Source: Candidatus Peribacteria bacterium | GTDB lineage: Bacteria; Patescibacteriota; Gracilibacteria; UBA1369; LOWO2-01-FULL-3 | DNA: 64,000 bases | NCBI GenBank assembly: GCA_943356465.1 | Contig: CALREX010000005.1 | Span: 62,001-126,000 of the forward strand | Direction of reading: 5' to 3' | Shown: in pieces, positions 12,191 to 20,695 of the stretch | How positions within the stretch are numbered: the stretch's first letter is position 1 | Layout: the number at the start of each line of letters is the position of its first letter | Program-made: the position numbers and the translations under genes | The notes under the pieces: generated by a model | Told to the model about the DNA's origin: nothing | Databases searched by the model: none | Seen by the model: only the letters and a program-made list of their open reading frames with translations

Positions 12191-13153
12191 TTACTCTGTC
12201 ACTGTGACGGTACCTTTCATGCTTGGATGAATATTGCAGTGGTAATTGAATGTTCCTACTTTTGTGAAGGTATAAGTATAAGTGTCCCCTGGTTTTAAAA
12301 TACTGCTGTTTGGACCTGTTCCTGAGTCTACTGTGACTGTGTGAGAAACACTATCTCTATTTATCCATGTCACTTTAGGGTTAACTCCTGCTATAACCAC
12401 CCCTTTTACACTTAATGTGCTTGGGCTAAAACTAAAATCTTTGATTTCTATAATCCTGGTATCTTCCGTGTTCGATTTCGATTTTGGAGTTAGTCCTTCC
12501 GTGTATTTTACATTTCCATTGTCGTGTGAAGCTTTTGATTTATAAAGAATTACAGCCATTGCACCTCGAGTCATATTCATATCAAGTGCAAAACCATAAG
12601 GATAATCTGTGAGTGTATCCTGTGGCATCAAACATAGAGAATCAAGAACACCAATGTATTTCGCATACCATACGTTTGTATCAGATAGAGTAATGCCACT
12701 ACATTTGTATAAATTTTTCCCATTGTTGTATAAGGCATCTACATCAAAATATGCATTTGCAACTATTTTTGAAGCTTCTGCTACATTTATTGTATTGTTC
12801 GGCTTGAAAGTTCCATCGCTGTAGCCATCTATGATGTGATCGGCGTAAGCTTCTCTTACATAATTTATGTACCATGCCTTCTCGTCGATGTCTGTGAATG
12901 GCAATTTCGTGATGGTAGGACCGTGCATTCCGGTAGCCTCATAAAGCATTTTTAGAAATTCGGCTCTTGTAACGCTATTTCCCGGTCTAAATGTCCCATC
13001 GCTATATCCTTGAACAGCACCTATGTCCTGTAACCATTGGACCGCTTGCATTTGAGCAGAGTCTTTTACGTCATGAAATGAGGCAAATGCTATATTTGAA
13101 ATAAGTGTGATGGCTGAAATAAATGCTACGAAAAGTGAAATAATTTTTTTCAT
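12191..13153 (-). CDS. Secreted S-layer-homology protein with C-terminal cupredoxin domain
   Basis: 320 residues. Signal peptide (about 1-24, ending SNIAFA), then SLH repeats: FHDVKD...VQWLQDIGAVQGYSDGTFRPGNSVTRAEFLKML, PFTDIDEKAWYINYVREAYADHIIDGYSDGTFKPNNTINVAEASK, and a weaker third repeat. After a linker, residues about 227-320 form a plastocyanin-like domain with a complete type I copper set: His271 (SHTV), Cys306, His309 and Met312 (YHCNIHPSM). SLH repeats bind cell-wall polymers, so this would be a copper electron-transfer or copper-binding protein held on the surface. No obvious redox partner is adjacent. Confidence 0.88.
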   Translation of the reverse strand: MKKIISLFVAFISAITLISNIAFASFHDVKDSAQMQAVQWLQDIGAVQGYSDGTFRPGNSVTRAEFLKMLYEATGMHGPTITKLPFTDIDEKAWYINYVREAYADHIIDGYSDGTFKPNNTINVAEASKIVANAYFDVDALYNNGKNLYKCSGITLSDTNVWYAKYIGVLDSLCLMPQDTLTDYPYGFALDMNMTRGAMAVILYKSKASHDNGNVKYTEGLTPKSKSNTEDTRIIEIKDFSFSPSTLSVKGVVIAGVNPKVTWINRDSVSHTVTVDSGTGPNSSILKPGDTYTYTFTKVGTFNYHCNIHPSMKGTVTVTE

Positions 13154-13209: not shown

Positions 13210-16200
13210 CTAGGCTGTGATTGTTGAAACATCAGCTGTCAGTACATCTTCTATTGATTCCGGTTGAACTGTTTTTAATTTTTCGATTAATTTTAAAGCC
13301 ATTGCTCGTGCCTTTAAAAAAGCGGCGTCAGGATCTTTTGCAATCAATTCTTTATTTTCATTTATGAAAGATGTTCTTATTGATTGAAGAAGCGTGCTTA
13401 TTGCATGGATAAGTTGTTGGTTTACTTCTTCATTACTGTCTAATCCCATTACTTCAAGCAATTCGCCTGCCGCGCTATCAGTTTGATCTTCGAAACTAAA
13501 ATCTTCACGCATCTTATAAAAATCATAAACAAACAGTGAAGTTATAAGGTTGCGATAATAATTTTCAGAAACTATTTTTGACCAATCTTGGTTTTCAAAT
13601 TCTGCCTGTTGGCCATTTTCATAACGTGGATAGTTTGATTCTAAAGTACGACCTACTTCTATTTGATCAAGATGTGAAAGTTTTTTAATTAATGTTCCCT
13701 TGCCTGCAATTTGAGCGGCTTTGGCATCTTTGACGGTCAGAGGAATTGCAATTTTTGATAGACCTTGCATGTCACTGCCGGTAAGCGGTTTTGCGATCGG
13801 TCTTTGCCTTGGCTCATCCGGATTTTGTTTACCTGCTGTCACGATTGTTGCGTTTCCATTCATACAGATACCTGAAACGTCTTGTAATGCTTCATGAGAA
13901 TAAATAACGGTATTTCCTTTTGCGCCCATGGCCAGTTTGCCTGCAGAACCTCTACATGAGAGATTCAAATCAGAAGCATATGATCCTCCGCAATCTCCGA
14001 TATATCCGTGAACAATGATAGTTGCGCCATTTGCTGACATACCTACGCTGCCATCTCCGTGAGCTGGTTTCTCCTCACTTCCTACAACGATTCTTAATTT
14101 ACTTTTACCTTCACCTGCTCCAAAAAGATAGTTACCATTTACCAGTGCCCCAAGATTGTGTCCCGAAACTCCGCTTGTTAATCTTACTTCGACACTTTTG
14201 ACAGTCTTTTCAAATTCCTCAGGGAAATGATGATAAATTGCATTTAAAGCGCTTAAAACTCCCATGTCCTTGTCGGTAAGCGGCTTATCGATGGTTATAA
14301 CAAACGGCTCTTTTTGTTCTTTTGTTTTTAGATGTTCAACTAATGCTTGAGCAACTTGTCTTTGTGCCCCTTTGTACGTATCAATAGTGAAAAAGTTTTG
14401 CTGTGAAACTATTGCGCGTGGACTTTTTATTGAAAGATTTGCGTCTGTTGAATGACTTGTGCGCGAGAAAAAATTGTCTCTAAGAGCATGAACATTGCCA
14501 TCTCTTTGAAAGTTTTCCAAAAGTTCCATGATTCTATCACCTGTAATTAATCTTTCTAAAAATTCCTGATGGTTTCTATCGAGATTTCCGGCTCTATATT
14601 CAGCCATAAGCTGATCTCTGTCAAAATTAACTTCTTGTCTACCTGAAAAGTTTTTATAACTTTGTTTTAATTTTTGATTAGCTATACCTGCAAAACCTAT
14701 AAAACTTGCGAGCTGTTCTTTTGGTAAATATGGAACGATGTTTACAATATCTCCAACCAACAAAAAGGCGTTCCTGGAAAAATCTTCTACGGAAACTCCT
14801 TCGGCATTTAAAGAAAGATAATTTTGTATTATTTTACTAAGTCCAGCGTGATCAAAATCTGTTTTGCTTATAAATTTGCCAATATCCAGTCTTTGGCTTA
14901 CATTACATGCCCGATCAACTTCGTCATCAGTATATGGATGACCATCCAGTTCTCGTATATATTCAGATCCTTCGACTTGAACACCTTCTATTATTTTTAA
15001 TAAATCTCTTTTCCCTCCAGCTTCTTCTATTGTTGTAGCACCAACATTTTTCAATAAAACTTTCATTGTACGCATAAATGCAAGCATGAATCTTTTTGCT
15101 CTTTCTTTTTGTGTTTTTACATTAACTTCTTTTGAGTCCGGATCTTCCTCTGTGCCATAGTCCATTATTCTTAATTTTCCTCTTTGCTTTGTACGTTGAT
15201 CTGTTAATACAGGGCCGCACATTCCTGTGTTGCAATGCCTGCAATTTCCGATAATACATTTCATTGCTCTGAGCATTGCTGTACATAATGTCCAACCATC
15301 AACGTTACCTTCCAATGTTTTTTTAAATGCATCGACCGGAGTGGTATTGCTTGAAGCCCAATTTACCGTCATCAAACCAAGCATATCCTGCCAGATGGCA
15401 TCCAGTTTTTTTGCTTCTGTTATCCAAGGATGGGCGGCACGATTTGTTGCTACAGGACGATTTCCTGTGCCTCCTCTCCAGTCTGAGTCTGTAGCAACCG
15501 CTCCAGCTTTTATTTCTCCGAAACGGGCCGGCACCATATATGGATCTGATGCACTCTTGCTCCAAACCATAATTTCTTCATCACCAAGTTCCGGAATTTC
15601 TCCGCCCGCTTCTCTGCAAATTGTGTATATTCTTTCTCTTAATTCTTCAATACTGTCGCCGTCGGCGTGATTGAAGAAAGATTTTATAGCATCGTGTGGC
15701 GTTACACCGCGTATTTTTGCTATCAAAAAGATTGTTTTGGTAAGCATTCCGCCATATCCGGATTTTGCATATTGAGCGTTTTTTATGCCGATTATACTCA
15801 AAAATCTACAAAGTTTTTGTAGTTTTCCATCCTCCATGTCTTGCAAATCTTTTAAAACATATTCAGAGTTAATCAGTTGTGACATAACTTTTTCTATCTC
15901 ACTAATTTCAGTCTCTTCAAATTGCCCTTCTTGTATTCCTTTTATTTTGAGAATTCCTTCTTTCTGTAAAACTCCACGATCGAAGAGATCACCGTCATTT
16001 GTTTCAATACCAAAGCGTCCTGAAGCATATTGGCCGCAAATGTGCATAAGGAATAATCTAAATTCCTGTGCAATACCACCTTCACCAATGCCAGCCAAAA
16101 TCAAAGTTTCTTTATCATTTAAAAATGGAATTTTGCCTTCTTGTGATTCATGACGAATTTCATAAATTGCCGCAAGCATCGCAAGCCATGTCTCGATATT

Positions 16201-19107
16201 GTTTGCACCAATGGACATGTGTCCTATTGTTACAGCCATAAAATCCAAAACTCTGAGATCTATATCTTTCAATTCTTCGTCACTAAATTCACGTAAATTT
16301 GCAAGGCCGTCAATTGTGACCATATCTTCCATTGTAACTATAGGCATTCCCTCATATTCTTGTGCCTCAAATTTGTAAGAGGCTCCTTCACGTGTCATTC
16401 TATCGAGGATTGCTAATGTTTGTGTATTCCACCTCTCCCAACCACTTGTATATTTTGGCAAGTCATCCGGTTTCATGTCTTCTTTCTGCCCGTATTGTAA
16501 AAGGCGTGATCTTTGGAATAAATCCAAAGCTGAGAGATCAAGTCCTCCGGCGCGCATTCCAGGTAGATTGCCTATGTATGCATTTAGGTCATCGGCAATT
16601 CCAAGTTCGTGTTCTGTTCCCGGTGCAGTTCCTTTCAATGCCATTATGTCATGGAAACCGCTTGATCCTGAGGTAATAGCCAGATCTTCATTCATTCCGA
16701 TAAGTGTATTTAATCCTCTTTGCATCATTTCCGGTCTATCGGAAGTTAGCTGTCCGTTTAGTTTATCCGGACTAAATAATCCGAGGCCACCATCAATCAT
16801 TAATTTTGGACAAACCGCATCTGCTCCATGAGCCAAACATTCTTTAACCACTTCTGCATTTGGAATACCATGTAAATCCGCAATTATATTCACCCTTGAA
16901 CGCAGGCTTTCTTTTATAGTATTTCCATTGGCGTCTTTTACCTCTATTGAAAATTGTTTAAGAGCATTGTGAATTACAGAGCAAGCGATGTCTCCAGGAA
17001 TTGGAATTTCATCATCACTGATCGTGTCGTCCAATATAATATTTTCTGTCCCTTCTGCTGCCAATGTTTTGGCTTCCTGTATTAACCTTTTTAAGCCTGC
17101 TTCCAATTTTTCAGATTTACGGTAACACGCTTTGATTCTTTTTTGATTAGTGAGTGCATCTACGGTAATCGTGCCATATTTTGTAGCTATTTCTGCGAGT
17201 AATTGTTTTCCCTCAGGTGTTTCTTCCAAAATACTAGAGCCGACCAGAATTGGAGTACTCAAAATGAGTGGCTCGCTGTCTCCGTTTGAAAGCAATGTGC
17301 TGGAACTGAATTCTATACGATTATCTCTCCCGGGGGATACAATGAAAGCCTTATGTTCGGAGCTATGTCTGGCTATGTATGGGTTTCTTGTCAGTGCGCC
17401 ATCCGGATTTGCATTTCCAAGACCAATTGAATGATAACTTCCTGTATTGCTATAAACCGCCAGCCTGACAACATCGCTATGTTCAAATCCATATAACCCA
17501 AAGTTATTTGAAATATTTCTTGGCAACTTTTCGGAATAAAGCTCTTCTGCAAAAGGTGTCTTAGCGACTTTTGGGCTACCATTTTGTGTTACTACTGAAA
17601 GCTGTTTTTGATCAAATCCTATTCCTGGCATAAATACTGTAGATTTTTCGCTATCACCATTTGTGGCGGTAGGATTAGGAATATGGAAATCCATGCCGGA
17701 ATTTGTAATTTCACCTGTATTTGGATCTATACTTAGAGTTTCGCTTGCAGGCACGGGACGAATTTCTGCAATATCATCCGGATGACAGGCGTTTATTATC
17801 GCTCCGCCGTTGCTTGCGATGTAAACGTTGTTATCATAATCTTTTGCTATCCATAGGACTCTTGTACGGTCAGGTGTTACCCTGATATATTCCTCTGTTG
17901 AAACGATAGTTGCAGCAGAACCTTGATATGACAGTTCCGGAAATGCTAAACGGGCTAATGTGAAAAATTTCCTTTCATTTGCAGGCATACTTTTGATCTG
18001 CTCCAAGGAGGGCGGTCTTTCGAAGAAAGAAATCACAAGTGGATCTATACCGTGATTTTTACAACAATCATAAAGATAAGTATGGAGTTTTGCCACTACG
18101 GAAGAATCCACACTGTCGATATGACTATATGCAAATTTCTTTGGAGTAACTCCTTTTTTCCCGTATGTTTCGAAGAAAAGCCTTTCGTATTTATGAACAC
18201 CAGGATCCCGAAGTCTTTCTTTAATAGTAAAAGGATTAACCAAATCGCCGTTATGCATGCTCCAGATTTTGTTTTGAACACGCGGCTGGCTGCTTGATAC
18301 TCCAGGTCTGCTTACTTGAGTCGGATATCTATCGTGAAGTGCAAATTGTGTAGACGGAAATTCTTCCAAATCGTCTTGAAAGAAAGTATCGAATTCTCTG
18401 GCTTGTCCGCTTAATCTATAGCATATCAATCCCGATGATTCTTCAGTGACCTCGCTCCATGACATTACTGTTACCCCAGGTGTGTTTCCTCTAAAAGACT
18501 GTTCAAGCTCGACTGCACTTTTTTCCGTTGGATTGTTTACAAAAATTCTTAGGTAGGTCAAAGGAATTTGTGATGGGTCTGTATCTGCAAATGTGCTTTT
18601 GAATGTTCTGAAGCTTAAGCCTCTTGGATTTGTGGCAATGCTTTCCACGTATAGTGGTTTTGCGCCTGTGGCTTCTATACCACGCAGAATACTATCAAGG
18701 TTTGGATTTAAACTATGGATTTGAATAACTTCCAATTTTTTTGCTCCTGACATATCAACTGTGCGATCATCCGGCCCAAAAAGCCGCACTCTGTTTTGTC
18801 TATTCCCTGCGCCTTGTAAAATAGAATGGACTTTTCCATGTGTCATACCATTCATTACCAGCCCACTACCTCCACCTCCTCTGTATTCGCCTTGTGTCTC
18901 ACGTAATTTACCAGCCACTCTGTGATATTCCACTCCATCTTTTTGATTCCAATTTAAAACGGCCAAAGAACATTCGCTTGTGTTTGGCTCTCTATCAGCT
19001 GCCGACTCTGACTGCTGGATTCTGTTTTCATGCAATTTTCCCAAACCTGGATGTTTGAAAATGAGTCTATTTTCTCTTGAATTAAACCGGCTATTTATAT
19101 GCAACAT
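13210..19107 (-). CDS. Giant, highly divergent glutamate synthase large-subunit-like protein (GltB-like)
   Basis: 1965 residues, against about 1500 for usual GltB. The full domain order can be traced by motif. Class II amidotransferase: candidate nucleophile Cys46 (SECSLAVLNW), then RYPTQ (about 255) and HNGDLVN (about 285). Central domain: IPGDIACSVIHNAL and LAHGADAVCPKL (about 704-780). FMN/synthase domain: GHMSIGANN, GEGGIA, HADGDSIEELRERIY and SDWRGGTG (about 1204). Cys cluster CIIGNCRHCNTGMC (about 1286) where GltB binds a 3Fe-4S centre. C-terminal GXGXG-like beta-helix (about 1645-1755). The cluster spacing differs from the usual C-x5-C-x4-C. Canonical reaction: glutamine plus 2-oxoglutarate to two glutamates. 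No GltD partner or ferredoxin lies nearby. A related FMN-dependent amidotransferase with another substrate is possible. Confidence 0.8.
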   Translation of the reverse strand: MLHINSRFNSRENRLIFKHPGLGKLHENRIQQSESAADREPNTSECSLAVLNWNQKDGVEYHRVAGKLRETQGEYRGGGGSGLVMNGMTHGKVHSILQGAGNRQNRVRLFGPDDRTVDMSGAKKLEVIQIHSLNPNLDSILRGIEATGAKPLYVESIATNPRGLSFRTFKSTFADTDPSQIPLTYLRIFVNNPTEKSAVELEQSFRGNTPGVTVMSWSEVTEESSGLICYRLSGQAREFDTFFQDDLEEFPSTQFALHDRYPTQVSRPGVSSSQPRVQNKIWSMHNGDLVNPFTIKERLRDPGVHKYERLFFETYGKKGVTPKKFAYSHIDSVDSSVVAKLHTYLYDCCKNHGIDPLVISFFERPPSLEQIKSMPANERKFFTLARLAFPELSYQGSAATIVSTEEYIRVTPDRTRVLWIAKDYDNNVYIASNGGAIINACHPDDIAEIRPVPASETLSIDPNTGEITNSGMDFHIPNPTATNGDSEKSTVFMPGIGFDQKQLSVVTQNGSPKVAKTPFAEELYSEKLPRNISNNFGLYGFEHSDVVRLAVYSNTGSYHSIGLGNANPDGALTRNPYIARHSSEHKAFIVSPGRDNRIEFSSSTLLSNGDSEPLILSTPILVGSSILEETPEGKQLLAEIATKYGTITVDALTNQKRIKACYRKSEKLEAGLKRLIQEAKTLAAEGTENIILDDTISDDEIPIPGDIACSVIHNALKQFSIEVKDANGNTIKESLRSRVNIIADLHGIPNAEVVKECLAHGADAVCPKLMIDGGLGLFSPDKLNGQLTSDRPEMMQRGLNTLIGMNEDLAITSGSSGFHDIMALKGTAPGTEHELGIADDLNAYIGNLPGMRAGGLDLSALDLFQRSRLLQYGQKEDMKPDDLPKYTSGWERWNTQTLAILDRMTREGASYKFEAQEYEGMPIVTMEDMVTIDGLANLREFSDEELKDIDLRVLDFMAVTIGHMSIGANNIETWLAMLAAIYEIRHESQEGKIPFLNDKETLILAGIGEGGIAQEFRLFLMHICGQYASGRFGIETNDGDLFDRGVLQKEGILKIKGIQEGQFEETEISEIEKVMSQLINSEYVLKDLQDMEDGKLQKLCRFLSIIGIKNAQYAKSGYGGMLTKTIFLIAKIRGVTPHDAIKSFFNHADGDSIEELRERIYTICREAGGEIPELGDEEIMVWSKSASDPYMVPARFGEIKAGAVATDSDWRGGTGNRPVATNRAAHPWITEAKKLDAIWQDMLGLMTVNWASSNTTPVDAFKKTLEGNVDGWTLCTAMLRAMKCIIGNCRHCNTGMCGPVLTDQRTKQRGKLRIMDYGTEEDPDSKEVNVKTQKERAKRFMLAFMRTMKVLLKNVGATTIEEAGGKRDLLKIIEGVQVEGSEYIRELDGHPYTDDEVDRACNVSQRLDIGKFISKTDFDHAGLSKIIQNYLSLNAEGVSVEDFSRNAFLLVGDIVNIVPYLPKEQLASFIGFAGIANQKLKQSYKNFSGRQEVNFDRDQLMAEYRAGNLDRNHQEFLERLITGDRIMELLENFQRDGNVHALRDNFFSRTSHSTDANLSIKSPRAIVSQQNFFTIDTYKGAQRQVAQALVEHLKTKEQKEPFVITIDKPLTDKDMGVLSALNAIYHHFPEEFEKTVKSVEVRLTSGVSGHNLGALVNGNYLFGAGEGKSKLRIVVGSEEKPAHGDGSVGMSANGATIIVHGYIGDCGGSYASDLNLSCRGSAGKLAMGAKGNTVIYSHEALQDVSGICMNGNATIVTAGKQNPDEPRQRPIAKPLTGSDMQGLSKIAIPLTVKDAKAAQIAGKGTLIKKLSHLDQIEVGRTLESNYPRYENGQQAEFENQDWSKIVSENYYRNLITSLFVYDFYKMREDFSFEDQTDSAAGELLEVMGLDSNEEVNQQLIHAISTLLQSIRTSFINENKELIAKDPDAAFLKARAMALKLIEKLKTVQPESIEDVLTADVSTITA

Positions 19108-19238: not shown

Positions 19239-19886
19239 CTATTGAAATTTTCGAGTTTCCGGTCCTTTGAATTTCGCCTTAAAATCCTCCAGTTTGGAGT
19301 AAAATGCTTTTAGAAATTCATTCTTGAAAATTAACTGAGGCTTTCGTACATGAGGCACTGCTCTTCCGATGTGTTTAACATCTACCAATACCGGGCGGTA
19401 ATGATCTTTTGCAACCCTTTGAACAAGCAAATTTTGTCCACGAAAAAAAACATCAGTTGAAATTAAATCATATTCAACCATAGCTTCCGCAATTTTATCT
19501 ACATGCTCCCAAAATGCTTCATTATCTACAGGCCCATATTCCAACATAGACGCGGAATATTGTCCGTCAAAATCTCTTGGCCTAGTCGCTACTAATTGAG
19601 TCTTTTCCGGATCACTTGGATCGACCCTCAAATCTATTACTTCAGGCATGTATTGCCTGAGTACTGTCGGAAATTTATTTATAATTCTATTTTCCCTTCT
19701 ATTCAGATCAGTTTCTCCATATCTAAATAAAAGGAATAACCTCGTTTTTAAAGTTAAACTTATTTCTAGAATGGGTATTCTTCTGGTAACCATTTCTCTT
19801 TGTACTTTGGCGCATAAATCGGGATTGTCTGCTACAGCGAAACAATCTCGATATGCTCCCTCGCCAATTTTGTCTCCTAATTTCAT
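19239..19886 (-). CDS. YrbL-like kinase-fold protein
   Basis: 215 residues, soluble. The N-terminus KIGEGAYRDCFAVADNPDLCAKV matches the glycine-rich loop and following Lys of the YrbL (PhoP-regulated) kinase-like family. Later segments fit the C-lobe: ISTDVFFRGQNLLVQ resembles the catalytic-loop region and PVLVDVKHIGRA the metal-binding Asp region. It is compact and lacks a standard HRD/DFG pair, so activity is uncertain. It sits directly upstream of the giant GltB-like gene in the same direction with 131 bases between. A regulatory link to that gene is only an inference. Confidence 0.7.
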   Translation of the reverse strand: MKLGDKIGEGAYRDCFAVADNPDLCAKVQREMVTRRIPILEISLTLKTRLFLLFRYGETDLNRRENRIINKFPTVLRQYMPEVIDLRVDPSDPEKTQLVATRPRDFDGQYSASMLEYGPVDNEAFWEHVDKIAEAMVEYDLISTDVFFRGQNLLVQRVAKDHYRPVLVDVKHIGRAVPHVRKPQLIFKNEFLKAFYSKLEDFKAKFKGPETRKFQ

Positions 19887-20049: not shown

Positions 20050-20101
20050 ATATTATTCATAGTGCATTAAATAATACTTTATAAAGTACTATGAATAATA
20101 T
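20050..20101. promoter_or_regulatory. Inverted repeats overlapping the antitoxin start: probable autoregulatory operator
   Basis: A perfect 14-bp inverted repeat, ATATTATTCATAGT (20050-20063) and ACTATGAATAATAT (20088-20101), spans the antitoxin ATG at 20091. Inside lies a separate perfect 14-bp palindrome TACTTTATAAAGTA (20075-20088). Type II antitoxins usually repress their own operon through such sites. The right arm includes the first codons, so it is partly constrained by coding. Confidence 0.65.
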
Positions 20102-20348
20102 TGTAACAGCTCAAGAACTTAAAACCAAAGGTATGGCAGCTCTTAACGAAAGAGCTAAGAAATTCAGTGAAACTTTCATAACCATTCGTGGCGAGAAAAG
20201 TTTTGCTGTACTTACTATGGATCAATATAGTTATTTACGTGAATGTGAACTTGAAGCTGCCTTAAAAGAATCCGAAGCGGATTTAGCCAGCGGCAAGTTT
20301 AAAGTAAAAAGTGTCGCAAGCCACATAAAAGATTTGAAGAATGTATAA
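20091..20348 (+). CDS. Type II antitoxin, Phd/YefM-like
   Basis: 85 residues. N-terminal Phd/YefM-type DNA-binding region (MNNIVTAQELKTKGMAALNERAK...GEKSFAVLTMDQYSYLRE) followed by an acidic helical tail that would wrap and neutralise the toxin. It overlaps the toxin gene by 8 bases, the usual coupled arrangement. The start codon lies within an inverted repeat that is probably its operator. The module is bracketed by a repeat of the tRNA-Phe 3' end, which suggests acquisition. Confidence 0.85.
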   Translation: MNNIVTAQELKTKGMAALNERAKKFSETFITIRGEKSFAVLTMDQYSYLRECELEAALKESEADLASGKFKVKSVASHIKDLKNV

Positions 20349-20613
20349 ATTGATTATTACCGAAAGTTATCAAAAAAGAGCAAAGAAATTTTTTGCTAAA
20401 CATCCGGAGATTTTAAAACAATATGAGAAAATTTTAAAGATACTTTGCCTAAACCCTCAACATCCTTCACTTAGGTTGCATAAATTATCAGGAAGATTAG
20501 CTGGTCTTTGTAGTGTTTCCGTTACTATTTCATATAGACTGATTATTCACTTTATCATAAAGGACGACAAAATTGTACCAATTGATATTGGGTCACACGA
20601 TGAGGTTTATTGA
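20341..20613 (+). CDS. Type II toxin, RelE/YafQ-like mRNA interferase
   Basis: 90 residues. Compact RelE-superfamily fold: MYKLIITESYQKRAKKFFAKHPEI, then NPQHPSLRLHKLSGRLAGLCSVSVTISYRLII and the C-terminal DIGSHDEVY, whose His and Tyr match the active-site end of RelE/YafQ toxins. These cut mRNA in the ribosomal A site. Paired with the upstream antitoxin through an 8-base overlap. The stop lies only 7 bases before the 3' end of tRNA-Phe on the other strand. Confidence 0.88.
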   Translation: MYKLIITESYQKRAKKFFAKHPEILKQYEKILKILCLNPQHPSLRLHKLSGRLAGLCSVSVTISYRLIIHFIIKDDKIVPIDIGSHDEVY

Positions 20614-20619
20614 TTAAAG

Positions 20620-20631
20620 ATGGTGCCGAAG
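20620..20631. repeat. att-like direct repeat, right copy (inside tRNA-Phe 3' end)
   Basis: ATGGTGCCGAAG, the partner of 19965-19976. This copy is the functional tRNA-Phe 3' end plus one base. Confidence 0.55.
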
Positions 20632-20695
20632 GGCAGAATCGAACTGCCAACGCCTGCCTCTTCAGGGCAGCGCTCTACCACTGAGCTACTTCGGC
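20621..20695 (-). tRNA. tRNA-Phe (anticodon GAA)
   Basis: Read on the minus strand: 7-bp acceptor stem GCCGAAG/CTTCGGC, D-arm GCTCAGTGGTAGAGC, anticodon loop CTGAAGA with anticodon GAA, T-arm containing GTTCGATTC, discriminator A and encoded CCA. All stems pair. Its 3' end is duplicated at 19965. Confidence 0.97.

Follow-up and report, generated by a model that had tools for sequence, protein, structure and literature searches.

A highly diverged, stand-alone homolog of the glutamate synthase large subunit in a Peribacteria bacterium

The window, a stretch of 64,000 nucleotides of Candidatus Peribacteria DNA, contains a gene for a 1965-residue protein related to GltB, the large subunit of glutamate synthase. 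The genome that carries it (G000) is 1.08 Mb in size and 98% complete, and belongs to a tiny lake bacterium that is probably host-dependent; G001, G002 and G003 are its congeners. A sequence-only reading had described a reading frame of this length with traceable GltB motifs, and we found the frame intact and every listed motif present. The features of the gene are listed below, with residues of the ferredoxin-dependent enzyme (Fd-GltS) of Synechocystis mapped to the protein via E. coli GltB.

13210-19107, minus strand: GltB-like gene, 1965 aa; uninterrupted reading frame with an ATG start and an ortholog in G003
18973-19107, minus strand: putative propeptide, aa 1-45, with ENRLIFK (alignment; cleavage predicted)
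18970-18972, minus strand: Cys46, which aligns with Cys1, the catalytic residue of the glutaminase (invariant column)
17668-18972, minus strand: glutaminase region (class-II glutamine amidotransferase), aa 46-480; hhalign matched aa 139-474 at E 1.4e-8, and dN/dS is 0.07 over aa 241-460
18244-18336, minus strand: glutaminase motifs H-D-RYPTQ ... HNGD, aa 258-288 (alignment)
16792-17268, minus strand: central domain, aa 614-772 (Pfam PF04898, Glu_syn_central, E 2.2e-10)
15181-16098, minus strand: FMN/synthase domain, aa 1004-1309 (Pfam PF01645, Glu_synthase, E 2.9e-13; dN/dS 0.041 for aa 1106-1300)
15793-16002, minus strand: insertion of ~60 aa (within aa 1036-1105), between ASGRFG and IKxAQxAK, adjoining the active site; in both orthologs, absent from the other GltBs examined
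15748-15786, minus strand: IKNAQYAKSGYGG, aa 1108-1120, with K1109, Q1112 and K1115 equivalent to Fd-GltS K966, Q969 and K972 (residue mapping)
15646-15648, minus strand: Glu1154, equivalent to Fd-GltS E1013, presumably the loop-4 coupling residue (residue mapping)
15346-15363, minus strand: NWASSN, aa 1249-1254, where the DGG FMN-phosphate loop stands elsewhere (alignment)
15217-15258, minus strand: Cys cluster C-X4-C-X2-C-X4-C, aa 1284-1297; the ortholog has the same four cysteines
13798-14337, minus strand: degenerate GXGXG-like C-terminal domain, aa 1591-1770 (hhalign E 0.0018; 4 of 14 invariants kept; dN/dS 0.051)
13213-13596, minus strand: C-terminal tail, aa 1838-1965, similar to the tail of the L042/L043/L074 subgroup (hmmsearch with the tail alone, E 6e-4; best unrelated decoy E 0.6)

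The gene is located in a variable stretch bounded by an S30AE-family gene and by a toxin-antitoxin-like pair with tRNA-Phe. This stretch is nearly empty in G001; its content in G002 is a DUF1003 gene (called by resemblance to a protein of G003 that Pfam identified) and a gene of 472 aa without known family. Immediately downstream of the GltB-like gene, a protein with SLH and cupredoxin domains is encoded (12191-13153, minus strand), which is absent at the G003 locus; upstream is a gene for a YrbL-like (PhoP-network kinase-like) protein (19239-19886, minus strand), also not found there. A YafQ/HigB-like toxin gene and its presumed antitoxin (20091-20695), next to tRNA-Phe, form the edge of the stretch. 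Because the neighbors differ between G000 and G003, the gene has no conserved operon partner. Scans for promoters and terminators yielded nothing in excess of shuffled sequences, and the GC content of the gene is modestly above that of its flanks (0.37-0.41 vs 0.33-0.36).

In a single-sequence search, the gene was present once in its own genome. The ortholog in G003 is 84-85% identical and divided between two contig ends; besides it, no further copy was detected in 148 relatives or 380 genomes of the phylum, nor in a pattern-based scan of ~85,000 species genomes, whose reach extends to close relatives only. G001 and G002 (98% complete) lack the gene. Flanking genes grouped G000 with G003 against G001 with G002 (148 supporting columns, vs 13 and 9 for the alternatives), and thus a single gain or loss is enough to account for the distribution. 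Recent transfer by a phage or plasmid was also considered and is unsupported: a search of viral contigs, phages and plasmids found no close relatives, and the features of the protein indicate the GltBs of Peribacteria.

Codon comparison of the two orthologs gave an overall dN/dS of 0.102, within the range of the neighboring genes (0.03 to 0.25). The lowest values were found in the synthase/Fe-S core (0.041, aa 1106-1300), the GXGXG-like part (0.051), aa 941-1040 (0.059) and the glutaminase core (0.071, aa 241-460), whereas the propeptide and linkers were laxer (0.1-0.19). The gene is therefore maintained under strong purifying selection, and these values rule out a pseudogene or a decaying gene.

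Homology to GltB spans nearly the whole length of the protein, although identity is only ~20%, which bears out the deep divergence proposed earlier. The PF01645 match scored 50 bits against a cut-off of 20.4, and PF04898 was also detected; Pfam GATase_2 and GXGXG gave no match even at E 10. Profile-profile comparison recovered the glutaminase region against Peribacteria GltBs (hhalign E 1.4e-8, aa 139-474) and, less strongly, against ordinary GltBs (E 3e-4). The match of the GXGXG part was weak (E 0.0018), though at the expected place. None of the NCBIfam models, including the GltB equivalog, matched the protein, and neither did any PDB sequence when it was searched alone. Its excess over ordinary GltB, previously put at about 460 residues, was measured at ~450-480 aa and is distributed across ~14 insertions; the largest extras are the N-terminal propeptide, the ~60 aa beside the FMN site, inserts of 34 and 51 aa in the GXGXG region, and the C-terminal tail. 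Structures predicted from alignments of 3-4 sequences had mean pLDDT values of 33.7 and 30.5, too low to be of use.

The motifs are C46, RYPTQ (260-264), HNGD (285-288), GADAV (761-765), GEGG (1008-1011), HADGDSIEEL (1147-1156), GGTG (1212-1215) and the Cys cluster CIIGNCRHCNTGMC (1284-1297). Of the positions that are invariant in 14 ordinary or Peribacteria GltBs, the protein retains 15 of 26 within the glutaminase part, 7 of 9 within the central domain, 31 of 46 within the synthase domain and 4 of 14 within GXGXG. Those kept include, in E. coli numbering, C12, R217, H237-N238-G239, D279, K931, Q934, K937, R957, E978, K999 and three cluster cysteines; in the glutaminase these correspond to Cys46, Arg260, His-Asn-Gly 285-287 and Asp. 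Relative to Fd-GltS, equivalents of K966, Q969, K972, R992, E1013, K1034, T1065, C1137, C1143 and C1148 are present, whereas those of E975, P1003, H1007, Y1010, G1060, A1067, the DGG phosphate loop (1105-1107) and G1128 are lost. We take the Lys/Gln/Arg set to be the 2-oxoglutarate (2-OG)/FMN site, E1013 to serve loop-4 coupling, and C1137, C1143 and C1148 to be the [3Fe-4S] ligands. Much of loop 4 is altered. Substitutions include DGG to A-S-S, GT to CT, H972A, Y975D, A1032N and Fd-GltS E975 to Tyr, mostly at positions invariant elsewhere, and the FMN-phosphate and loop-4 replacements are identical in both species with this type of protein. The altered cysteine spacing noticed earlier (CX4CX2CX4C vs CX5CX4C) is real: the three aligned cysteines are kept with a spacing of CX7CX4C instead of the CX5CX4C expected for [3Fe-4S], and there is one extra Cys.

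Searching 288 genomes of the class with PF01645, and the 89 genomes of the order with a profile, revealed a sporadic family of single-gene, stand-alone GltBs in Peribacteria (L037-L044 and L074; 1252-1774 aa, some truncated where a contig ends). These proteins strongly match ordinary GltB profiles (L037 and L043 also match NCBIfam NF008730, below its cut-off) and have pairwise identities of 25-50%, one 91% pair aside, but only ~20% identity to the protein analyzed here. The propeptide motif is shared with Peribacteria GltBs (ENRLIFK vs ENRLIYK, ENHLLYK and ENRLVFN), as is an extra cysteine just ahead of the second cluster cysteine; the cluster is the Peribacteria C-X2-C-X2-C-X4-C with two residues inserted after the first cysteine. 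The GEGG glutamate (E975 of Fd-GltS) is lost both here and in the L042/L043/L074 subgroup. In the tree, the stem of the orthologous pair is ~3.9 changes per site long (median end branch, 0.57), and because of this very long stem its position is uncertain; grouping with L042/L043/L074 was not rejected (AU p 0.097). The protein is the most diverged member of the Peribacteria stand-alone GltB family. The suggestion of a new amidotransferase class was overstated, as relatives also have the fourth cysteine and a similar C-terminal tail, and equivalents of 2-oxoglutarate/FMN-site and coupling residues are kept; it is a variant on the glutamate synthase theme, not a new class. Another substrate or electron donor, also suggested earlier, is conceivable, given the changed FMN-phosphate loop and loop 4 and the lack of the usual reductant genes in the genus.

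The gnd/zwf locus is conserved in one Peribacteria family (L037 in G024, L044 in G028, L043 in G008 and L074 in G010); between two species of one genus the GltB at this locus is ~31% identical, whereas Gnd and Zwf are 78% and 88% identical, reflecting either repeated replacement of GltB or exceptionally fast divergence in place. A very divergent GltB of 1608 aa (L039:8456-13282, cluster CX5CX3C) lies amid nucleotide-sugar, glycosyltransferase, ABC-transporter and UbiA-family genes and is possibly an amidotransferase of a cell-surface pathway. GltB is split into two or three frames in L075 (G006) and L079 (G014), and a 500-aa remnant occurs in L076 (G009); these represent either ongoing decay or assembly errors.

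The absence of a nearby gltD, noted earlier, extends to the whole genome: the N-terminal domain of GltD (PF14691) was absent from G000 and 20 relatives; a control was positive for 9 of 14 genomes. A genome with an ordinary-type GltB is among these 21 without GltD, and therefore its absence is normal in this group. Most of the other Peribacteria GltBs adjoin genes for a LOG-like protein, 6-phosphogluconate dehydrogenase (gnd), glucose-6-phosphate dehydrogenase (G6PDH; zwf) and 6-phosphogluconolactonase (pgl), the completeness of the set varying. An example of a stand-alone GltB beside LOG-like (TIGR00730), gnd, zwf and pgl is L037:765-11996, with equivalents in L038, L041, L043, L044, L074 and L079; such GltBs are possibly pentose-phosphate-linked glutamate synthases that work without GltD. 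In the taxonomic family of G000, G6PDH was found in 9 of 9 genomes with an ordinary-type GltB, 3 of 19 without GltB and neither of the 2 with the present type (Fisher p 3e-5 for 9/9 vs 3/19, uncorrected for kinship). This co-occurrence and the gene neighborhood suggest that ordinary-type Peribacteria GltBs draw on pentose-phosphate NADPH via some carrier. A different arrangement was observed on a Shinella plasmid (L093:1785-8680), where the gene for a glutamate-synthase-related protein of 1828 aa precedes a gene for a flavodoxin/FAD-binding (CysJ-like) reductase, which stands in the place of gltD.

Neither G6PDH nor a plant-type [2Fe-2S] ferredoxin was found in the genus. The earlier statement that no ferredoxin gene is nearby holds locally; however, a 65-aa single-cluster [4Fe-4S] ferredoxin is encoded in G003, the carrier of the ortholog, and in G001. 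In G000 no ferredoxin scored above threshold, and the sole hit was another protein, presumably QueG-like. The loop specific to Fd-GltS after GEGG is missing (16 residues from GEGG to ASGRF vs ~40 in Fd-GltS). G000 does encode a flavokinase, which supplies FMN, and glutamine synthetase, which supplies glutamine.

By a narrow balance of the evidence, we favor the view that the protein is a derived but still catalytic stand-alone GltB homolog, a glutamine-dependent FMN/Fe-S synthase with a donor other than GltD and possibly an altered oxo-acid. Removal of the propeptide would expose Cys46, which would hydrolyze glutamine, and the ammonia would travel through an internal tunnel to the TIM-barrel site. 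There, an Fe-S cluster with Cys ligands would feed FMN, which would reduce the imine of 2-oxoglutarate or of a closely similar 2-oxo acid; a small ferredoxin, or some other soluble carrier, would provide the electrons. The data show that the glutaminase, central and synthase parts are homologous to those of GltB (Pfam domains and the glutaminase profile), that the catalytic sites keep most of their residues, that selection is purifying and that GltD is absent; cleavage of the propeptide, binding of FMN and of the cluster, the tunnel, the acceptor and the donor are inferred. The first three of these observations support this interpretation, as do the flavokinase and glutamine synthetase of the carrier and the single-cluster ferredoxin of G003. 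It is weakened by the changes in the FMN-phosphate loop and loop 4, by the 4 of 14 positions kept in GXGXG, by the lack of G6PDH, GltD and plant-type ferredoxin in the genus, and by the lack of a ferredoxin above threshold in G000.

The same changes could be read differently. It is conceivable, although rather unlikely, that the protein is a GltB-derived glutamine amidotransferase with another ammonia acceptor, which kept the barrel and cluster while its flavin redox chemistry was altered or lost, reductive glutamate synthesis having been abandoned upon loss of reductant genes in the genus. Identical FMN-phosphate and loop-4 replacements in both species, the insertion adjoining the active site and the G6PDH distribution (9/9, 3/19, 0/2) are consistent with this; the retained equivalents of K966, Q969, K972, R992, E1013 and K1034 and the cluster cysteines argue against it, and no conserved neighbor hints at another pathway. 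Likewise, we doubt that a new catalytic type has arisen on the glutamate synthase scaffold, in which the tunnel and the Fe-S barrel would serve a different acceptor or donor following loss of the NADPH-generating partner pathway. It is improbable that the protein is an ordinary ferredoxin-dependent glutamate synthase with unchanged substrate and reaction that drifted in a reduced, fast-evolving genome: the catalytic set is largely retained, related Peribacteria lack GltD too and G003 has a small ferredoxin, but the stem of ~3.9 changes per site far exceeds the median end branch, the ferredoxin loop is missing and the changes hit positions invariant elsewhere. That the protein is non-enzymatic, with a structural or regulatory role, or that the gene is decaying, as its occurrence in just two of the four genomes of the genus and the low identity might suggest, is very improbable given dN/dS values of 0.04-0.07 precisely in the catalytic cores, an intact frame, and catalytic and cluster cysteines that are the same in both species.

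Glutamate synthase, whose overall mechanism is known, is described as the only amidotransferase that drives ammonia addition by oxidoreduction (PMC8097209), and it is strongly conserved among reference bacteria. In the open-access literature searched, we found no description of Peribacteria glutamate synthases. A homolog that works without GltD, with catalytic and coupling residues mostly kept and the FMN-phosphate loop lost, would reveal what the machine cannot do without, and would also show how nitrogen assimilation was rewired in reduced, probably host-dependent bacteria.

By homology, the protein belongs to the glutamate synthase large-subunit superfamily, and on paper it would function as a GOGAT; it has neither the GltD of the NADPH type nor the ferredoxin loop of the Fd type. 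It shares with the alpha subunit GltB of bacterial NADPH-GltS (PDB 1ea0, 6s6x and 7mfm) the domain order (in GltB, PF00310-PF04898-PF01645-PF01493), the catalytic glutaminase residues, equivalents of Lys/Gln/Arg of the 2-OG/FMN site, the loop-4 Glu and three homologous cluster cysteines. It differs in its ~20% identity, ~450 additional residues, absence of GltD, strongly degenerate GXGXG, loss of the FMN-phosphate glycines and the loop-4 His and Tyr, and CX4CX2CX4C instead of CX5CX4C. Like Fd-GltS (Synechocystis, 1llw/1ofd), it is one polypeptide without GltD; unlike it, the insertion after GEGG is absent, and its genus lacks plant-type ferredoxin. The stand-alone Peribacteria GltBs likewise have no GltD in the genomes searched and share the extra cluster Cys (CX2CX2CX4C) and the propeptide motif, the L042/L043/L074 subgroup also having a similar C-terminal tail and lacking the GEGG Glu (Fd-GltS E975). 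Most of these relatives, however, are encoded next to LOG-like, gnd, zwf and pgl genes, and they retain the invariant residues, whereas the protein described here is encoded at a separate locus.
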